Shown here one piece after another: positions 30,132-51,172 of a stretch of 64,000 bases of DNA. Source of the stretch: Carnobacterium pleistocenium FTR1 (GTDB lineage Bacteria; Bacillota; Bacilli; Lactobacillales; Carnobacteriaceae). Below the pieces are notes generated by a model. That model was not told where the DNA came from. It searched no databases and was given only the letters and a program-made list of their open reading frames with translations. The DNA lies in assembly GCF_000744285.1 (NCBI RefSeq), contig NZ_JQLQ01000002.1, forward strand, positions 1,116,001 through 1,180,000, written 5' to 3'. Both the position numbers and the translations under genes were made by a program. The stretch's first letter is position 1; every line of letters starts with the position of its first letter.

Positions 30132-31235
30132 TTAAGAAAATAGTTTTTGACATGCTTTTGGACCAACAATACCGTCAGATAGAAGGCCACAAGTCGTTTG
30201 GAATTTTTTAACTGCTTGAGTTGTGTTAAGTCCAAAATAAGAATCTGGCATACCAATTAGAGGATATCTCTTTCCTAGTAAAAAAGCTTGAACTGCATAC
30301 ACATCCTGCCCAGTCGATCTGTTTTTTAAGATTCTCATTTTTGAAGCTGTTTTAGGACCCCAATAGCCATCTATAGTAGAACCATTGTTTTGCTGGATGA
30401 GTTTTATTAGTGCTTGTTTTGTTAACGGTCCAAAAAGACCGTCTTGTTCGATTTTAAGTTTTTTCTGGACTAGTTTGATCAAATCATTTTGAGATAAGGT
30501 AGTTGCTTTAGGTTGTTCCATTGAAATAATCAGGTTTTGACCAATCAAGATAGTTTCAGAAGATAAATTGTTGATCATTTTTAGCCAAGTAAGGGTCGTG
30601 TGGTATGTTTTAGCGATACTCCACAACGAATCGCCTTTCACAACAAGATGATACAATTGATTCAGTTTAGAAACGGTGGGTATGGGTGTAGGGGCAGTTT
30701 GATTAGTCTTAGCCAAATCTTTGGAAAATTGTGCGAGTGAAATATTCTGCTGCAAAAGGTAAGTGTCAGGATCTGTATGAGTAGTGCCTCCTAAATGACG
30801 GGAAATCCAATGGTGCGTTTTAATGCCTTTAGAGGAGAGCGTTGTACCAGAATTTAATGTGTGTGGGATACCAGCTTCAGCTGCAAGTTTTTGTAAAAGC
30901 CATATATAAGCCTGATAGTCTCTTTGAAACCAAGTTAAGTTTGTTGTGCGAGCTAATTCAACTTGGGCATAAGCATGCGGATTTGCCAGTTTCCCCGCAC
31001 CAAATTGTATTTTTCCTGTTTGAGCAATTTGGATGATTCTTCCGCCACCACCGACCCAATGACTGGTGAAAGCACCATTTGCTAAAGCTTGTTTTTTCAT
31101 ATAAGCAATTTCATTTTCTAAAGAAAATGGACCACTATTTTTGGTATTGCCAGATTCATGAGCAATAACAAAACTGTTACTGAGCAATTTTTTTTGAATG
31201 ATTGGCAAGAGTTGTTTTTCAATCGTATGCGTCAT
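30132..31235 (-). CDS. N-acetylmuramoyl-L-alanine amidase with LysM and peptidoglycan-binding domains
   Basis: A 367-residue cell-wall hydrolase. An amidase_2 domain covers residues 15-165 with likely zinc ligands His26 (FVIAHESGN), the His of GIKTHHWISRH and the Asp of THTDPDTY. A LysM domain follows (YHLVVKGDSLWSIAKTYHTT) and then two PG_binding_1-type repeats (EQDGLFGPLTKQAL; SYFGLNTTQAVKKFQ). There is no signal peptide, as in phage endolysins or lysis-released autolysins. ATG 31235 follows a perfect AAGGAGG; a terminator-like hairpin lies just 24 bases upstream. The DUF2922/DUF1659 genes precede it on the same strand. Confidence 0.88.
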   Translation of the reverse strand: MTHTIEKQLLPIIQKKLLSNSFVIAHESGNTKNSGPFSLENEIAYMKKQALANGAFTSHWVGGGGRIIQIAQTGKIQFGAGKLANPHAYAQVELARTTNLTWFQRDYQAYIWLLQKLAAEAGIPHTLNSGTTLSSKGIKTHHWISRHLGGTTHTDPDTYLLQQNISLAQFSKDLAKTNQTAPTPIPTVSKLNQLYHLVVKGDSLWSIAKTYHTTLTWLKMINNLSSETILIGQNLIISMEQPKATTLSQNDLIKLVQKKLKIEQDGLFGPLTKQALIKLIQQNNGSTIDGYWGPKTASKMRILKNRSTGQDVYAVQAFLLGKRYPLIGMPDSYFGLNTTQAVKKFQTTCGLLSDGIVGPKACQKLFS

Positions 31236-31260
31236 TTTTAATTCCTCCTTGGAAAATAAA

Positions 31261-31288
31261 ATAGGATGAGACTTTTGTCTCATCCTAT
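31261..31288 (-). terminator. Terminator-like hairpin directly upstream of the amidase start
   Basis: Perfect 12-bp stem ATAGGATGAGAC/GTCTCATCCTAT with a 4-base loop, followed on the minus strand by TTTTATTTT and then the amidase ribosome site. It would end the DUF1659-DUF2922 transcript or act as an attenuator for the amidase gene. Confidence 0.75.
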
Positions 31289-31329: not shown

Positions 31330-31554
31330 TTATTCTGCTTCAAAGATGTCGTTTACGACCCGTTCAACGTAGCGTGCGCCTACTACAGTGGCATAGGGAT
31401 TGGCACCTTCAATTTGAAACATATTTAATGAAATGATGGAATTCATTGCTTCCTGAGCTTTTTCTGCTGTTAAGTTAAGGATTGGATCTTTTACGCTCAT
31501 TGCCTTTGTCTTTCCTAAACTTGTACCGAATCTTAATTCCAATGATTTTGCCAT
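31330..31554 (-). CDS. DUF2922 family small protein
   Basis: A 74-residue protein starting AKSLELRFGTSLGKTKAMSV, recognisable as the DUF2922 family of Firmicutes, which has no established function. ATG 31554 is chosen because AGGAGGAAAAAAA precedes it; an upstream in-frame ATG at 31590 lacks this. It lies 56 bases after the DUF1659 gene on the same strand, a pairing often seen in Firmicutes, suggesting the two act together. Confidence 0.75.
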   Translation of the reverse strand: MAKSLELRFGTSLGKTKAMSVKDPILNLTAEKAQEAMNSIISLNMFQIEGANPYATVVGARYVERVVNDIFEAE

Positions 31555-31610: not shown

Positions 31611-31814
31611 TTAACGAGTGTAGGTATATTCTTCAACCATGACTGTTTCTAAATATGGGAAGCTAGTTAGAGATTCTAAAGCAGCCGTAAAACCTTCAAC
31701 TTGTTCCGGTGTAACCGCAGCAATTGCATTAGGGTAGTTGCGTGATACTGTTTTTTCATTTGCTGCATCTTCAAAATGTACTTCGATTGACCCTTTTGTC
31801 CATTCTTTTTGCAT
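31611..31814 (-). CDS. DUF1659 family small protein
   Basis: A 67-residue protein (EVHFEDAANEKTVSRNYPNA, then AAVTPEQVEGFTAALESLTS) of the DUF1659 family, function unknown. The strong ribosome site AAGGAGG sits before its ATG on the minus strand. With the DUF2922 protein it forms a two-gene unit that ends at the hairpin before the amidase. The upstream region carries a palindromic site at 31846-31872. Confidence 0.75.
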   Translation of the reverse strand: MQKEWTKGSIEVHFEDAANEKTVSRNYPNAIAAVTPEQVEGFTAALESLTSFPYLETVMVEEYTYTR

Positions 31815-31845
31815 AATTAATTCCTCCTTATATAGTTAGGTGCTG

Positions 31846-31872
31846 TGTAAGTTTTTGTCATGACATCTTACA
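31846..31872. promoter_or_regulatory. Palindromic site upstream of the DUF1659-DUF2922 unit
   Basis: Outer arms TGTAAG (31846) and CTTACA (31867) enclose a perfect TGTCATGACA (31856-31865). It lies about 35-60 bases before the DUF1659 start, fitting an operator; the regulator is unknown. Confidence 0.4.
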
Positions 31873-31977
31873 CTTTTAATAACGTTTAGAAAGAATAGAG
31901 TGTTACCTTATGTTTGAAAGAATGAAAAAAAGTACACAGATTTATTGGGTTTTCTGTTTAGTTAAATTTGCTAAAAA

Positions 31978-31990
31978 AAAACGTGCTTTT
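31978..31990 (+). promoter_or_regulatory. ComK-box-like AAAA-N5-TTTT motif
   Basis: AAAACGTGCTTTT matches the AT-box half of a ComK site exactly. It lies 63 bases upstream of the ComK-like gene. A second exact AT-box at the classic 8, 18 or 31 bp distance was not found; A- and T-runs nearby may be degenerate partners. Confidence 0.4.
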
Positions 31991-32052
31991 TAGTTTGATA
32001 ACGATTACAATTGTTATATATTAAATAGGGTGATGGAAATGAGGATACAAGC

Positions 32053-32985
32053 TTGAAAGATTACACTATTCAAGATGACTATTTTTTCAATAAAAAGACT
32101 TGGAACAGCGAATTAGAGAGTCTTGTTTGTAATTTTTTAGAAGAATGTCTGTGTCAACAAGAAAATCATATAGAAACAGACTATTTTGATGAAGAAGAAA
32201 TAACTAGTCTTAATAAAACTGACCTTTTAGAAATAATATATGAGAAAACGAACACAGTAGAGGAGTGGTTGAAAAGAAGCATTGAGCAAAATCAAATTTC
32301 ACTTGATTACCAGACGTTCTATGTGATGGATATTAGTCATTACTCGTTATCGTCGTTCAATACAATCGTTTTTCAATCTAATCTTTATCCACTTAAAACC
32401 AAAGAAACATCAAAAGATCTAATAAAACGTTTTATTGATCATACAGGGGTCCCCTATGAAAAAGTACGGTCAGTAGGTCATTTGTTAGGCTTTTATTATA
32501 AAATCCCTTATGTGATAGGTGAAGCAGTTTTTATACCGGAAAAAAGTTCAATGAGAGGAACTAGTAGTTGGTTTGCTCTACATCATGTTAGTCAATACGA
32601 AGTGGTTGAGCAATCAAACGACATCCGTTTATATTTTAAAAATCAAACTAATATTAGCGTGGTAACTGAACGAACGCATTTTTTGAATCAAGCAGGAAAA
32701 GGAACAGCATTAAGTTGTTGTCAACAGCTGTTTGCAAAAGAAATGTTGCTGAATAAATATTCCATGCAAGATTTATTCTATTTTAAAGAAACCGATTTAA
32801 ATGTAGGCTCATTTTCTAACCAGGTAGATCAGATAACCCTAGAACGATATGCGTTATCCATCCAAAGTCAATCCAACAATCTTAAAAAAGTCATAAAAGA
32901 ACAGCTGTTAACGTCAATTCTAGGAGACGATCATCCTAATTTAAATGATATCCTGGTTACATTAACATTTAAATCAAATGAATAA
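32053..32985 (+). CDS. ComK-like protein with N- and C-terminal extensions
   Basis: A 310-residue protein of uncertain family. Residues about 105-230 follow the pattern of the competence transcription factor ComK: YYKIPYVIGEAVFIPEKSS matches KPPI-V...FLFPT-SS, then a conserved Trp (SSWFALHHVSQYEV), IRLYFKNQ matching VTFSNG, and FLNQAGKGTA matching FENQ...TA. B. subtilis ComK has about 192 residues, so this protein has roughly 95 extra N-terminal residues (acidic, Cys-containing) and about 75 extra C-terminal residues. TTG 32053 is the only start with a ribosome site (GAGGA, seven bases upstream). A ComK-box-like motif lies upstream, hinting at autoregulation. Assignment is by eye. Confidence 0.5.
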   Translation: MKDYTIQDDYFFNKKTWNSELESLVCNFLEECLCQQENHIETDYFDEEEITSLNKTDLLEIIYEKTNTVEEWLKRSIEQNQISLDYQTFYVMDISHYSLSSFNTIVFQSNLYPLKTKETSKDLIKRFIDHTGVPYEKVRSVGHLLGFYYKIPYVIGEAVFIPEKSSMRGTSSWFALHHVSQYEVVEQSNDIRLYFKNQTNISVVTERTHFLNQAGKGTALSCCQQLFAKEMLLNKYSMQDLFYFKETDLNVGSFSNQVDQITLERYALSIQSQSNNLKKVIKEQLLTSILGDDHPNLNDILVTLTFKSNE

Positions 32986-33116: not shown

Positions 33117-33872
33117 ATGAATTTAACGAAACTTGTACAACTGTATATTGTTAATCAAAATATTGGCAGTCCAATTTTCATTTCCGATATTATGCATTAC
33201 ATAGAACAGTATGCTGATAATGATAAAGAGCACAAACAAGTAAGAAAAAATGTGAATGTTATTTTAATGAGAATGGTAAAAGACGATAAAGGATTAAAGC
33301 GTTTTGGAACGGGTGTCTATTATCGTGATGGAATAGAACAGACAGAAGAATCAGGTATTGATTGCGTTGAGTTGATCGAAAGAACTTATGTAGAGGATAA
33401 GACGGGAAATATTTATGGCTATCTAACAGGTGAGGCATACTTGCATAAGTTAGGGTTGATTGAAAACATTCCAAACGAAATCGTCATTGCAACAAATGAA
33501 AAGCGAAATGGAAATGTTGAATCGGCTGATATGAACTTTAAGTTGATCAATCCTCCAACAACGGTAACGAATGAAAATTGCTGTTATCTCCAAATATTAG
33601 ATTTAATAAAAAATGATTTGATCAAGGGAGACAATATTCAATACAATTACAGGCTGACTCATCATATGAATGAATACCATTTAGAGGCGGATAAATTGGT
33701 TGCATTTGCTGTTGATTTTTATAGTCAGAAAGTTATCCTTAAAGTTGCTGAATTTATTAATAATAAGGTGTATCTGGAAGAACAAAAGGATGGAATTTTG
33801 ATTACAATAGAGTCTACCAGACAAAATAAAACAGATGAGGTAATCATAGATAAAATGGGTGAAGATGATTAG
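33117..33872 (+). CDS. AbiEi/DUF6088-like antitoxin-type protein (orphan)
   Basis: A 251-residue protein. The N-terminal 70 residues look like a winged helix (FISDIMHYIEQY, then LKRFGTGVYYRDG), followed by the AbiEi/DUF6088-type core IYGYLTGEAYLHKLGLIENI and NEIVIATNEKR. AbiEi proteins are autorepressing antitoxins of type IV toxin-antitoxin and abortive-infection systems whose toxin is a nucleotidyltransferase. No nucleotidyltransferase gene is adjacent: downstream is a terminator and a metal-resistance operon. It may therefore be a solitary antitoxin or a domesticated regulator. The start follows a strong AAGGAGGTAGG site. Confidence 0.55.
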   Translation: MNLTKLVQLYIVNQNIGSPIFISDIMHYIEQYADNDKEHKQVRKNVNVILMRMVKDDKGLKRFGTGVYYRDGIEQTEESGIDCVELIERTYVEDKTGNIYGYLTGEAYLHKLGLIENIPNEIVIATNEKRNGNVESADMNFKLINPPTTVTNENCCYLQILDLIKNDLIKGDNIQYNYRLTHHMNEYHLEADKLVAFAVDFYSQKVILKVAEFINNKVYLEEQKDGILITIESTRQNKTDEVIIDKMGEDD

Positions 33873-47655: not shown

Positions 47656-49356
47656 ATGGAAGAACAAGATTGGTGGAAAAAAGCAATCGTTTACCAAGTT
47701 TATCCAAGAAGTTTTAAAGATACTAATGGAGATGGCATTGGGGATCTTAAAGGCATTATTTCTCGCTTAGATTATATTCAGCAATTAGGTGCTACAGCTA
47801 TCTGGCTCAACCCAATTTTCACTTCACCGCAAGTAGATAATGGATATGATGTATCCGATTATTATACGATCGATCCAATTTTTGGAACCATTGAAGATGT
47901 CGAGGAATTGATTGCAGCAGCTCATAAACGCGATTTGAAAGTTATTTTTGATTTTGTTGTGAATCATACGTCTGATAAGCATCCTTGGTTCCAAGAAGCG
48001 CTAAAAGGACCAGAAAATCCATATCGTGATTTCTATATTTGGGAAGATCCTAAAAAAGGTGGTCATTTACCCAATAACTGGGTCGCCGTTTTTGGTGGTT
48101 CTGTTTGGGAAAAAGAACCTGTTGGAGACCAATATTATTTTCATTTGTTCAAAAAAGAAATGCCTGATTTAAATTGGGACAATCCAGAAGTTGAAAAAGC
48201 GATGTTGGATATTGGAAAATTTTGGTTGCATCACGGGGTTGATGGATTTCGCTTAGATGCGTTTATTCATATGGATAAATTAGATGACTTTCAGACGATT
48301 GAAATGGAAGAAGGTCGAGAACTGGTTTCTGCTCAAAAAATCAATGCTTTTTTACCTAATATTAAAAACTATGTTCAAAAATTGACCATGGATTTACGAA
48401 AAGTTAAAAAAGACGTTTTTATTTTAGGTGAAGCTGCTTCAGCTGATGTGGATCTTGCTTTTGAGTATGCTGATCCTGAAAGCAATATGTGCGATGCGAT
48501 TGTTTCCTTTTTGATTTTTCCAGAAGACGAGCAGATGAAAGATCCACGACTGCCATTCAACATGCAATCGAGTCGATTAGATCGAAAAGCATTTAAAAAA
48601 GTTATGACTGACTGGCAAACGAAAATGAACCCAACCGGTGGACCTGTTTTGTATTGGAGCAATCATGACATGCCCCGAGCCGTTTCACGTTTTGGAAATG
48701 TGGAAAAATATAGAGACAACAGCAGCAAAATGTTAGCGACTTTAATGTACCTACAACATGGCATCCCATTTATTTTTAATGGCGAAGAAATTGGTATGCG
48801 TAATTTACAATGTGCAGACCATCATATATTTGACACACCAGGGGCTATCCCTTTTTATGAAAAAGCCAAGCAACTAGGGTATTCTGAAGAACACATCTTG
48901 AAAGAATTAAACCACACAGGACGAGATGTGAGCCGAGGAGCTATGCAGTGGGACGCTTCAAAATTTGCTGGTTTTTCAACAGTCGAACCATGGAGTGTTT
49001 TAAACGTAGAAGAAAAATACAATGTAGCGGATCAACAAAGAGACCCAAACAGTATTTTGGCGTATTACCAAGAGGTTTTAAAATTGAAAAAATCTTCCCT
49101 ATTTAGAGAAGGCTCTTTTAAATTGACTGAGACTAAAGAAGCGTTATACATCTATGAAAGAGATTTTGAAGGTCAGCGTGCAATCATCTGTTGTAATTTG
49201 TCCGATACCGAAGAGCACATTCAAGAGGATGGCATTTCAAAAGCTGGTTGGAAGATTCTGTTACAAAATGAGGGCAATACAATTGATCAAGATGCAGTTA
49301 CTTTGGCCCCATATGGAGCCGTCGTTTTTTTACATGATACCAAAGTTTCTAAGTAA
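47656..49356 (+). CDS. GH13_31 alpha-glucosidase, paralogue 1
   Basis: A 566-residue intracellular glycoside hydrolase that splits glucose from malto-oligosaccharides. (beta/alpha)8 signatures: VYQVYPRSFKDTNGDGIGDL, DFVVNHTSDKHPWF, nucleophile Asp201 in DGFRLDAFIH, acid/base Glu in FILGEAAS and the transition-state Asp in YWSNHDMPRA. The residue after the nucleophile is Ala rather than the Val of alpha-1,6-specific oligo-1,6-glucosidases, which argues for alpha-1,4 activity. No signal peptide. It has a close tandem paralogue at 49484, separated by an operator hairpin. Confidence 0.88.
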   Translation: MEEQDWWKKAIVYQVYPRSFKDTNGDGIGDLKGIISRLDYIQQLGATAIWLNPIFTSPQVDNGYDVSDYYTIDPIFGTIEDVEELIAAAHKRDLKVIFDFVVNHTSDKHPWFQEALKGPENPYRDFYIWEDPKKGGHLPNNWVAVFGGSVWEKEPVGDQYYFHLFKKEMPDLNWDNPEVEKAMLDIGKFWLHHGVDGFRLDAFIHMDKLDDFQTIEMEEGRELVSAQKINAFLPNIKNYVQKLTMDLRKVKKDVFILGEAASADVDLAFEYADPESNMCDAIVSFLIFPEDEQMKDPRLPFNMQSSRLDRKAFKKVMTDWQTKMNPTGGPVLYWSNHDMPRAVSRFGNVEKYRDNSSKMLATLMYLQHGIPFIFNGEEIGMRNLQCADHHIFDTPGAIPFYEKAKQLGYSEEHILKELNHTGRDVSRGAMQWDASKFAGFSTVEPWSVLNVEEKYNVADQQRDPNSILAYYQEVLKLKKSSLFREGSFKLTETKEALYIYERDFEGQRAIICCNLSDTEEHIQEDGISKAGWKILLQNEGNTIDQDAVTLAPYGAVVFLHDTKVSK

Positions 49357-49380
49357 GGATAAAAAATAAGCCACTGATTA

Positions 49381-49408
49381 AATAAGCTGTTACCGCTAAC
49401 AGCTTATT
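49381..49408. promoter_or_regulatory. Operator-like perfect palindrome between alpha-glucosidase genes
   Basis: AATAAGCTGTTA-CCGC-TAACAGCTTATT, a perfect 12-bp inverted repeat. Its core TGTTACCGCTAACA (49388-49401) matches the palindrome before the second binding-protein gene in all but one base, so it is a likely MalR operator. It could also form an RNA hairpin ending the first gene. Confidence 0.6.
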
Positions 49409-49413
49409 TCTGA

Positions 49414-49442
49414 TTGTAAGTGTTTTCATAATTCGGTAAACT
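49414..49442 (+). promoter_or_regulatory. Promoter with cre-like site for the second alpha-glucosidase gene
   Basis: TTGTAA (49414-49419), 17-base spacer, TAAACT (49437-49442). TGTAAGTGTTTTCA (49415-49428) matches cre with one mismatch and overlaps the -35 region, so CcpA could repress here. Confidence 0.45.
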
Positions 49443-49483
49443 AATAGTTGAAATGGAATTTAGTGAAGTCGAGGTGGCATAGT

Positions 49484-51172
49484 ATGAGTACCATTCATGA
49501 CAAGTGGTTTGAAAAAGCAGTTGTGTATCAAGTCTACCCTAAAAGTTTTCAGGATACAGATGATGATGGTATTGGTGATTTGAAAGGCATTCTTAAACGG
49601 ATGGACTATATCCAATCCCTTGGAGTAAATATGATTTGGTTGAATCCTGTTTTCGTTTCTCCGCAGGTCGATAATGGCTACGATGTGGCTAATTATTATG
49701 CTATTGATGATTTGTTTGGCACGATGGCGGATATGGAGAAACTAATTGAAGAAGCGCATAAACGGGGCATCAAAGTCATGTTGGATTTTGTATTGAATCA
49801 TACGTCTGATCAGCATCCTTGGTTCCAAGAAGCTTTGAAAGGTCCAGAGAATAGGTATCGGGATTACTATATCTGGCATGAAGCCGTTCACGGACAATCA
49901 ATACCAAATAATTGGGGCTCATTTTTTGGCGGTTCTGTTTGGGAAAAAGAATCTAGGAGTGATTCTTTCTATTTTCATTTATTTGCCAAGGAAATGCCGG
50001 ATTTGAATTGGGAGAACCCTGAAGTACGCTTGGCAATGGCTGATAGTGCTGAGTTTTGGTTAGATAAAGGAATTGATGCTTTAAGATTAGATGCATTTAT
50101 TCATGTTGCCAAAGAAGGTGGTTTTCCTGACGTCAGCCCAGCAAACAAAGGTGAAATCGTTTTGGCAGAGAACTATTATGCTAATTTACCAAAAGTGATC
50201 GATTACATGAACGAGTTCAATCAGCGTGTTCGTAAAAATCATCCAACTGTTTTTTTGGTTGGAGAAGCCGCGTCTGCAAGTGTTGAATTAGCAAAAAAAT
50301 ATACAGACCCGATAAATAAGGTATGTGATAGTGTGATAACGTTTCGGTACTTTCCCGAAACGGAAGAGTTAAAAGACAAACGACTGCCCTTAAATAGGCA
50401 GCATGGTAAGCTAGATTTAAAAAAATTCAAACTGACAATGGCAGAATGGCAAAAAGAATTAGCTGAAGTTGGCGGACCGGTATTGTATTGGAATAATCAT
50501 GATATGGCCCGAGCGGTTTCACGTTTTGGCGATGATGAACACCACCGTGATAACAGCAGTAAGATGCTGGCGACGTTAATGTATTTGCAAAAAGGCATTC
50601 CCTTTTTATTGAATGGCGAAGAAATAGGCATGAAAAATTTAACGATCAAAGCGATTGAAAATTTTTCTTTGCCAGGAGCGGATCTTTTTTATCAAATGGC
50701 ACTCGATTTAGGTCATTCAAAAGAATTTGCTTTGGAGCACTTAAATGCACGAAGCAAAGACGTTAGTAGAGGTGTTATGCAATGGGATGACACAAAATAT
50801 GCGGGATTTTCAGCTCATCTGCCATGGAGTGGCGTAAATCGCGAAGAAAAGTATAATGTGCTAGATCAAGAGACAGATGTAACCAGTGTATTGCATTACT
50901 ATCGAGCAGTATTAAAATTGAAAAAGGAACCTTTATTTATAAAAGGTGCGTTACAACTAATGGCAACAAGTTTGGAAACCTATTGTTATGAGCGTCATTG
51001 GGAAGCAGCTAAAGCTTTAGTGTGTTGCAATCTATCGGAAAAAACGCAAGTGGTTTCAATAAAAGGCTGGATCAATCAACCTTATACCGTTGCATTGACG
51101 AATCAAGGAAACACTTTGCAAAAGGAAACCGTGACCTTGAGTCCATATGGAGCAATGGTTATTCTAATGTGA
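49484..51172 (+). CDS. GH13_31 alpha-glucosidase, paralogue 2
   Basis: About 562 residues, clearly paralogous to the preceding gene: VYQVYPKSFQDTDDDGIGDL, LDFVLNHTSDQHPWF, nucleophile Asp in IDALRLDAFIHVA, Glu in FLVGEAAS, Asp in YWNNHDMARA. Ala again follows the nucleophile, favouring alpha-1,4 linkages. ATG 49484 is preceded by GAGGTGG; the TTG at 49448 has no site. It lies 56 bases upstream of the neopullulanase gene, probably on one transcript. Division of labour between the two paralogues is unknown. Confidence 0.88.
   Translation: MSTIHDKWFEKAVVYQVYPKSFQDTDDDGIGDLKGILKRMDYIQSLGVNMIWLNPVFVSPQVDNGYDVANYYAIDDLFGTMADMEKLIEEAHKRGIKVMLDFVLNHTSDQHPWFQEALKGPENRYRDYYIWHEAVHGQSIPNNWGSFFGGSVWEKESRSDSFYFHLFAKEMPDLNWENPEVRLAMADSAEFWLDKGIDALRLDAFIHVAKEGGFPDVSPANKGEIVLAENYYANLPKVIDYMNEFNQRVRKNHPTVFLVGEAASASVELAKKYTDPINKVCDSVITFRYFPETEELKDKRLPLNRQHGKLDLKKFKLTMAEWQKELAEVGGPVLYWNNHDMARAVSRFGDDEHHRDNSSKMLATLMYLQKGIPFLLNGEEIGMKNLTIKAIENFSLPGADLFYQMALDLGHSKEFALEHLNARSKDVSRGVMQWDDTKYAGFSAHLPWSGVNREEKYNVLDQETDVTSVLHYYRAVLKLKKEPLFIKGALQLMATSLETYCYERHWEAAKALVCCNLSEKTQVVSIKGWINQPYTVALTNQGNTLQKETVTLSPYGAMVILM

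Follow-up and report, generated by a model that had tools for sequence, protein, structure and literature searches.

An extended ComK paralogue in Carnobacterium pleistocenium and its probable partnership with a SigX-like sigma factor

The DNA analysed here, referred to as the window, is a 64,000 nt stretch of Carnobacterium pleistocenium FTR1 (NZ_JQLQ01000002.1, positions 1,116,001-1,180,000, forward strand). It carries a comK-like gene, comK2, whose product is best read as a paralogue from a branch of the ComK family with enlarged proteins, and which probably works together with a SigX-like sigma factor, as ComK1 does with SigH in Staphylococcus aureus. A probability of roughly 0.57 is assigned to this reading.

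The comK2 gene lies at 32053-32985 (+ strand) and encodes a protein of 310 residues from a TTG start. This open reading frame, which was proposed in a sequence-only reading of the window, is borne out both by its limits and by comparison: the frame opens just 8 codons 5' of the TTG, the next candidate start is 72 codons further inward, and the same TTG starts the gene in both sister species that carry it. The likely ribosome-binding site, as read from the sequence, is a GAGG at 32041-32044 (+ strand), and GAGGAT is kept in all three genomes that have comK2. The orthologues are intact in two sister genomes of the genus (303 and 313 aa, with 69 and 62% identity, respectively). Pairwise dN/dS values among the three Carnobacterium genomes with the gene are approximately 0.14-0.27, which argues that comK2 encodes a protein under selection.

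Several comparisons place the product in the ComK family. PF06338 (ComK) matches the window protein with an E-value of 1.2e-8 and 35.3 bits, above the Pfam cut-off of 22.3, and residues 100-219 align with positions 21-142 of the 152-position model. Each of the 18 proteins in a broad alignment matches the same model (E up to 10; best 5.8e-10). Additionally, an extended-family profile was built from 60 open reading frames of 59 loci (among them a doubtful 167-aa second frame of locus L111) and nine Carnobacterium proteins, and was compared using hhalign with the short ComK proteins of family f7, by inference the Listeriaceae or Listeria-type family. In this single comparison the probability was 97.8 and the E-value 6.9e-13 over 153 columns, with residues 81-237 of a 310-aa relative pairing with residues 14-170 of a 203-aa short ComK. 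The ComK-like core claimed by the sequence-only reading is thus upheld, including by profile comparison. Its claim of extensions at both ends also stands, although the sizes of about 95 N-terminal and 75 C-terminal residues do not: relative to short ComKs, hhalign gives 65-70 and approximately 40 residues, respectively. In the window protein, the core corresponds to about residues 80-225, and the flanking extensions are poorly conserved. The full length of 310 aa compares with about 195-230 aa for the f7 short ComKs, and lies outside the usual ComK length near 190-220 aa, which is a trait of known members and not a curated requirement. An NCBIfam search with the window protein returned no match, and PDB sequence searches returned no relative, the one row (E 1.6) being at chance level. 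Judged by these comparisons, the window protein is an enlarged ComK-family member. The family assignment itself is not new, as many such proteins already lie above the Pfam ComK cut-off. What is shared with the ComK of Bacillus and of f7 is the homologous core and a Pfam match above cut-off. The differences are the length (about 200 residues there, 310 here), the absence of conserved K-boxes at com promoters, and the presence of a sigma gene beside the paralogue.

Within the GTDB order of the window, PF06338 matched in 107 of 395 genomes. Counted from the result rows, these comprise 33 genomes of f7 (with short ComK), six of the window's own genus, and 68 others in families f1, f2, f4, f6, f8, and f9. 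Family f1 corresponds to the Carnobacteriaceae. The extended-family profile matched in 151 of the 395 genomes, representing 43 of 80 genera; both the 107 and the 151 include f7 genomes with short ComK. No f3 genome was matched by either profile. Among 14 control genomes searched at E 1e-3, Bacillus subtilis alone gave a match, and Lactococcus lactis gave none.

The extended comK-like genes are frequently found beside a sigma gene. For this comparison, 59 extended comK-like loci were taken from 56 of the 68 genomes (12 being left out), and the open reading frames of each locus were searched with a profile of the six Carnobacterium sigma genes. A SigX-like sigma gene lies within 2.5 kb of the comK-like gene in 42 of the 59 loci. 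Counted from the rows, these 42 represent 18 of 23 genera, and each of the six families is included. Thirty-four of these pairs are divergent, with 158-487 bp between the two genes, seven are convergent, and one is tandem. By a rough estimate, such proximity to one given gene would be seen for well under 1% of random genes; the link between comK and the sigma gene is therefore real, although the loci are related by descent. The remaining 17 loci have no sigma gene nearby. Six of them are from two-copy genomes (L080, L084, L085, L086, L089, and L090), and the sequence of L086 ends 0.8 kb from the gene. Desemzia sp. RIT 804 and the f6 genomes G100 and G167 also have second comK-like copies (loci L080/L081, L089/L090, and L092/L093), and further two-copy f6 genomes are seen with the extended profile. 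The copy pairs of Desemzia and G167 may be separate, later duplications.

In C. pleistocenium, the sigma gene adjoins the other comK copy. This second gene, comK1 (L003:5453-6385, - strand), is approximately 75 kb from comK2 and encodes a 310-aa protein with 28% identity to the window protein. The SigX-like sigma-70 family gene (L003:4830-5384, + strand; TIGR02937 7.2e-20, Sigma70_r2 2.2e-7) is tail to tail with it, and only 68 bases separate the two. This convergent pair is present in all six Carnobacterium genomes. An Rgg-type regulator gene (L003:1193-2113, - strand) is located near the sigma gene and has orthologues in several Carnobacterium genomes (L036, L040); it is a candidate input to the sigma/ComK switch. 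In all six Carnobacterium genomes, the SigX-like gene is preceded, at a distance of about 33 bases, by a gapless perfect palindrome, TACAAGGCCTTGTA, which recurs ahead of the sigma gene in several further genera of f1 and f6. Genus-specific variants, at more variable distances, are CTGAGGCCTCAG, CCTTGGCCAAGG, GCAAGCTTGC, and TGGCTAGCCA. Palindromes of at least 10 bp occur in 32 of 42 regions upstream of the sigma gene (a few of them look unrelated); the figures are 8 of 42 for regions upstream of comK and 22% for shuffled sequences. The palindrome is a candidate operator or RNA element.

The genes for DNA uptake are also present across the genus: comGA, comEC, dprA, coiA, comC, and comFA were found in all six genomes. 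A comF search with PF18912 gave only two weak matches in the six genomes, one of them to a different gene, and comFA was located with the G005 protein as query. In C. jeotgali (G003), comGA is split on contig 5 into pieces at 48997-49569 and 89243-89680, with approximately 39.7 kb of inserted DNA between them, and a 449-aa open reading frame directly after the break (L027:2796-4145, - strand) is read as a serine-recombinase-type protein. Similarly, comK is in two pieces, approximately 40 and 48 kb apart, in the f7 genomes G020 and G147; a split comK is known for Listeria comK prophages.

The predicted fold of the core bears on how the protein might act. AlphaFold models of the window protein and of a Desemzia relative were each made from a five-sequence alignment, and their confidence is limited to the core (block pLDDT 53-79 over residues 81-220 in the former, and 68-90 over residues 61-220 in the latter). 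The six best VIA rows for the window-protein model are all LytTR DNA-binding domains (AgrA, ComE), at Z 8.0-6.3 with the next row at 4.6, and the six best for the Desemzia model are likewise all LytTR domains, at Z 7.1-5.5 with the next row at 3.0. These rows align 90-107 residues at 6-13% identity. Foldseek gave no E-value below 0.001 for either model, its E-ranked lists being headed by unrelated folds, and a profile-profile comparison using hhalign against a shallow set of seven LytTR domains gave a probability under 1. No solved ComK was among the structural rows listed for the two models. The likeness of the predicted ComK core (approximately residues 75-223) to LytTR DNA-binding domains is thus a lead without sequence support, and it is one in which the ComK core has extra helices.

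A protein lying so often beside a sigma gene could conceivably be a partner of the sigma factor itself, as a stabiliser or an anti-sigma factor, and not a DNA-binding activator. Its role would then be comparable to that of pneumococcal ComW. The frequency of the pairing (42/59) is in keeping with such a function, as are the N- and C-terminal extensions that short ComK does not have. However, what is conserved is the ComK core, whose predicted fold has LytTR DNA-binding domains as its nearest matches among the rows compared, so that a purely sigma-directed role is considered very improbable.

The sequence-only reading had linked comK2 to autoactivation through an AT-box of the kind bound by ComK in Bacillus. 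The exact AAAA-N5-TTTT sequence that it placed 63 bases before the TTG is present (AAAACGTGCTTTT, 31978-31990, + strand), yet it is judged to be a chance match and was rejected as a signal: shuffled sequence would give 19.7 such matches in the window, where 36 are found, and neither sister genome with comK2 (G001 and G003) keeps the A half. Eight com/comK promoter sets from the six Carnobacterium genomes were then examined for exact and loose boxes, for spaced pairs, and for conservation. In none of the eight sets is an AAAA-N5-TTTT box common to all genomes, and no conserved pair with 8/18/31 spacing is present at comK2, comG, comEA, comFA, dprA, coiA, or comC. Across the 45 promoter sequences tested, pairs with B. 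subtilis spacings are at about the shuffled level, save in two single-genome promoters. These are the comK1 promoter of G000, with 5 loose pairs (0.91 expected, p 0.01) where the other five genomes have 0-1, and the comEA promoter of G003, with 5 loose pairs (0.34 expected, p 0.00) that are not shared by sister genomes. One further AAAA-N5-TTTT sequence, AAAAGCACCTTTT, is found approximately 180 bases upstream of comC in five of the six genomes; the stretch around it is strongly conserved and looks like a neighbouring gene.

These results bear on a Bacillus-type circuit, in which ComK alone would activate the com operons and itself via pairs of AT-boxes. The homology to ComK (PF06338) and the pair counts in the two promoters above are compatible with it. 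Excerpts of PMC3536758 also indicate that outside B. subtilis the recognition of K-boxes can be difficult, and that most com promoters of B. coagulans have none that is recognisable; for this reason the K-box reading is weakened here, while binding by ComK could still occur. Nevertheless, the lack of any AT-box common to all genomes, the lack of conserved pairs at seven promoters, the absence of the G000 comK1 pairs from sister genomes, and the conserved SigX-like box that stands at the promoters instead make this circuit quite improbable, and its use by the com promoters is not supported. From the original proposal of a ComK-driven circuit in the Lactobacillales, the ComK protein and the host order stand, and the autoactivation through K-boxes, which relied on a single unconserved AT-box, does not. 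The com operons come close to the arrangement that the same proposal had named as evidence against itself, namely no AT-boxes and a SigX/ComX box only. Yet a similar box is also present upstream of both comK genes, and ComK may therefore still belong to the circuit.

This box was identified by aligning the upstream regions of comG, comEA, dprA, coiA, comC, comFA, comK1, comK2, and the DUF1659 operon divergent from comK2 across the six Carnobacterium genomes. One conserved CG-centred box per promoter is found in eight of the nine sets, and the upstream alignment of the comC set has none. The boxes are ATAACG[CA]AAT for comG, [TA]ACG[TC]ATA for comEA, TGCGTA[CT] for comFA, TGCG[GT]A for dprA, TTTGCGGATA for coiA, AACG[TA]TTAC for comK1, ATAACGATTAC for comK2 (three genomes), and CGTTATT for the DUF1659 operon. 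The dprA set holds five of the six genomes; C. pleistocenium is outside the set, and its own dprA box is TTTGCGGAAG. At comK2, the block GATAACGATTACA (31997-32009, + strand) is identical in the three genomes with the gene, and it is a candidate SigX-type promoter element or ComK site. The comK1 promoter has it too, and looser forms of it occur at comG and other com promoters. Upstream of comK2, TTGATAACGATTACAATTGTTATATAT is conserved in the same three genomes, with slight variation in its first bases, and RATAACGNWTACA has a single copy in the window (0.01 expected). The block in the comK promoters could also hold sigma-A-like hexamers, such as TTGATA and TATATT in comK2.

Fourteen control upstream sets were prepared, of which one (with one sequence found) was dropped and 13, of three to six genomes each, were used. 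Any conserved CG is present in 8/9 com/comK sets versus 5/13 control sets (Fisher p 0.025). Two of the CG-bearing controls, an rgg gene (three genomes) and a VOC gene (five genomes), are near the sigma gene or comK1 and thus not neutral, and the rgg set has a ATAACGAGTAT-like sequence upstream in the three genomes aligned. A stricter pattern, [AG]CGN[AT] in every genome, is found in 7/9 sets versus 1/13 controls (p 0.0015, for a pattern picked post hoc and counted by eye), the control exception being a glycerol-dehydrogenase-like gene (three genomes). The DUF1659 operon misses the strict pattern because of G003. Two sub-types can be distinguished, one T-rich with [TA][AG]CGNA (comFA, comEA, coiA, and dprA) and the other ATAACG-like (comG, comK1, and comK2), and hence one factor may not read all of the boxes.

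The CG-centred box resembles the streptococcal SigX-box TACGAATA, as quoted in an excerpt of PMC6328492; the exact TACGAATA is not among the boxes listed above for the Carnobacterium com and comK promoters. The ComX/SigX regulon of streptococci shares with Carnobacterium com promoters that have a CG-centred box of similar shape, whereas here the comK genes carry the box too. ComK is not known to take part in streptococcal competence. At the 59 other loci, the comK upstream regions were also searched with the box pattern. Look-alikes are present near Carnobacterium, in genera g4, g5, and (weakly) g2, and scattered single matches are found elsewhere. In genus g3, a related block, TCGGTTACAAT, is kept upstream of comK in 5/5 cases. 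The comK upstream regions of the f4 genera g33 and g56 and of the f8 genus g18 show no evident box of this kind.

The neighbourhood of comK2 is relevant to whether the gene takes part in DNA uptake. Divergent from it is an operon that begins with a small gene at 31611-31814 (- strand), read from its open reading frame, present in all six genomes, and presumably of the DUF1659 type. This is followed by a DUF2922 gene (31330-31554, - strand; PF11148 6.5e-22), which is also present in all six genomes and whose ATG was chosen by comparison with sister genomes, and then, in the same direction, by a gene for a LysM/peptidoglycan-binding N-acetylmuramoyl-L-alanine amidase (30132-31283, - strand; PG_binding_1, LysM, and Amidase_2). 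The amidase is a possible competence-linked murein hydrolase. The box of the operon, CTAAACGTTATT (31878-31889, - strand), keeps its CG core in 6/6 genomes, and the leader holds a dyad, GTGTAAG...TGTCATGACA...CTTACAC (31845-31873), that is found with small changes in 6/6 genomes and is a possible operator. On the other side, downstream of comK2, is a DUF6088-like gene (33117-33872, + strand), with a match to PF19570 below cut-off. The comK2 gene itself is present in three of the six Carnobacterium genomes. In the three without it (G002, G004, and G005), the DUF6088-like gene still lies next to the DUF1659-DUF2922-amidase genes, which indicates that comK2 was gained or lost at this locus.

Competence, if there is any, might run on the sigma factor and comK1, with comK2 being a diverged paralogue that has a job outside DNA uptake, for instance in control of the divergent DUF1659-DUF2922-amidase operon or in stress. 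The stem to the comK2 clade is long (1.93, versus 0.49 to the comK1/Desemzia clade), and the gene occurs in just three of six species, between the same two neighbours. ComK2 of S. aureus, according to an excerpt of PMC10182052, has an overlapping regulon and is not needed for the transformation genes. Such a separate role is nonetheless thought rather unlikely. The comK2 promoter bears nearly the same box as that of comK1, and the DUF1659 operon seems to be independent of comK2, because its own box and leader dyad are kept in genomes without the gene.

For the preferred reading, in which the extended ComK proteins work with the SigX-like sigma factor, the following mechanism is proposed. The sigma factor would recognise the CG-centred, SigX-type box at the com operons and at both comK genes. 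A ComK-like protein would bind DNA near these promoters and aid the sigma-RNA polymerase, both factors would be needed, and competence would be the output. The product of comK1, which adjoins the sigma gene in 6/6 genomes, would be the main partner, and that of comK2, with its 3/6 distribution, would have a tuning role that might extend to the divergent DUF1659-DUF2922-amidase operon. It could also be ComK that binds the CG box at comK1, comK2, and comG, in which case autoactivation would use a motif other than the K-box. Against the sigma-plus-ComK reading stand the 17/59 loci with no sigma gene nearby, the lack of a box at comC, and the absence of comK2 from half of the genomes.

The S. aureus system likewise combines, in one genome, an alternative sigma factor with a pair of ComK paralogues. 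Those paralogues are ordinary short ComK proteins, whereas the family described here is extended and its genes are commonly divergent from the sigma gene. Excerpts of PMC10182052 describe SigH and ComK1 of S. aureus as both essential for comG, and ComK1 without SigH as needed for ssb and comC.

A broader interpretation can be offered tentatively, and is possible without being the expected one: an old two-part switch, made of a SigX-like sigma factor and an adjoining extended ComK, may run competence in the non-streptococcal Lactobacillales, with streptococci having lost ComK, and with a ComK core that would be a DNA-binding domain of LytTR type, its fold shared with the pneumococcal competence regulator ComE. 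The length and divergence of these ComKs would explain why such a switch was missed. In excerpts of a 2012 report (PMC3364868), Lactobacillus sakei and the Lactobacillales generally are described as apparently having no ComK homologue, and forced SigH is described as raising com transcripts in L. sakei, with no transformants reported there. Our literature search found no paper on ComK in the Lactobacillales, and no earlier report was found of the extended ComK form, its spread, its pairing with a sigma gene, or the shared box. If the proposed partnership is true, a widespread ComK partner beside the sigma gene would offer a testable reason why, in some species, forcing only the sigma factor may not be enough, and a way to make food bacteria transformable. 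The sigma-ComK pairing of S. aureus would then also look like a common rule in the Bacilli and not an exception.
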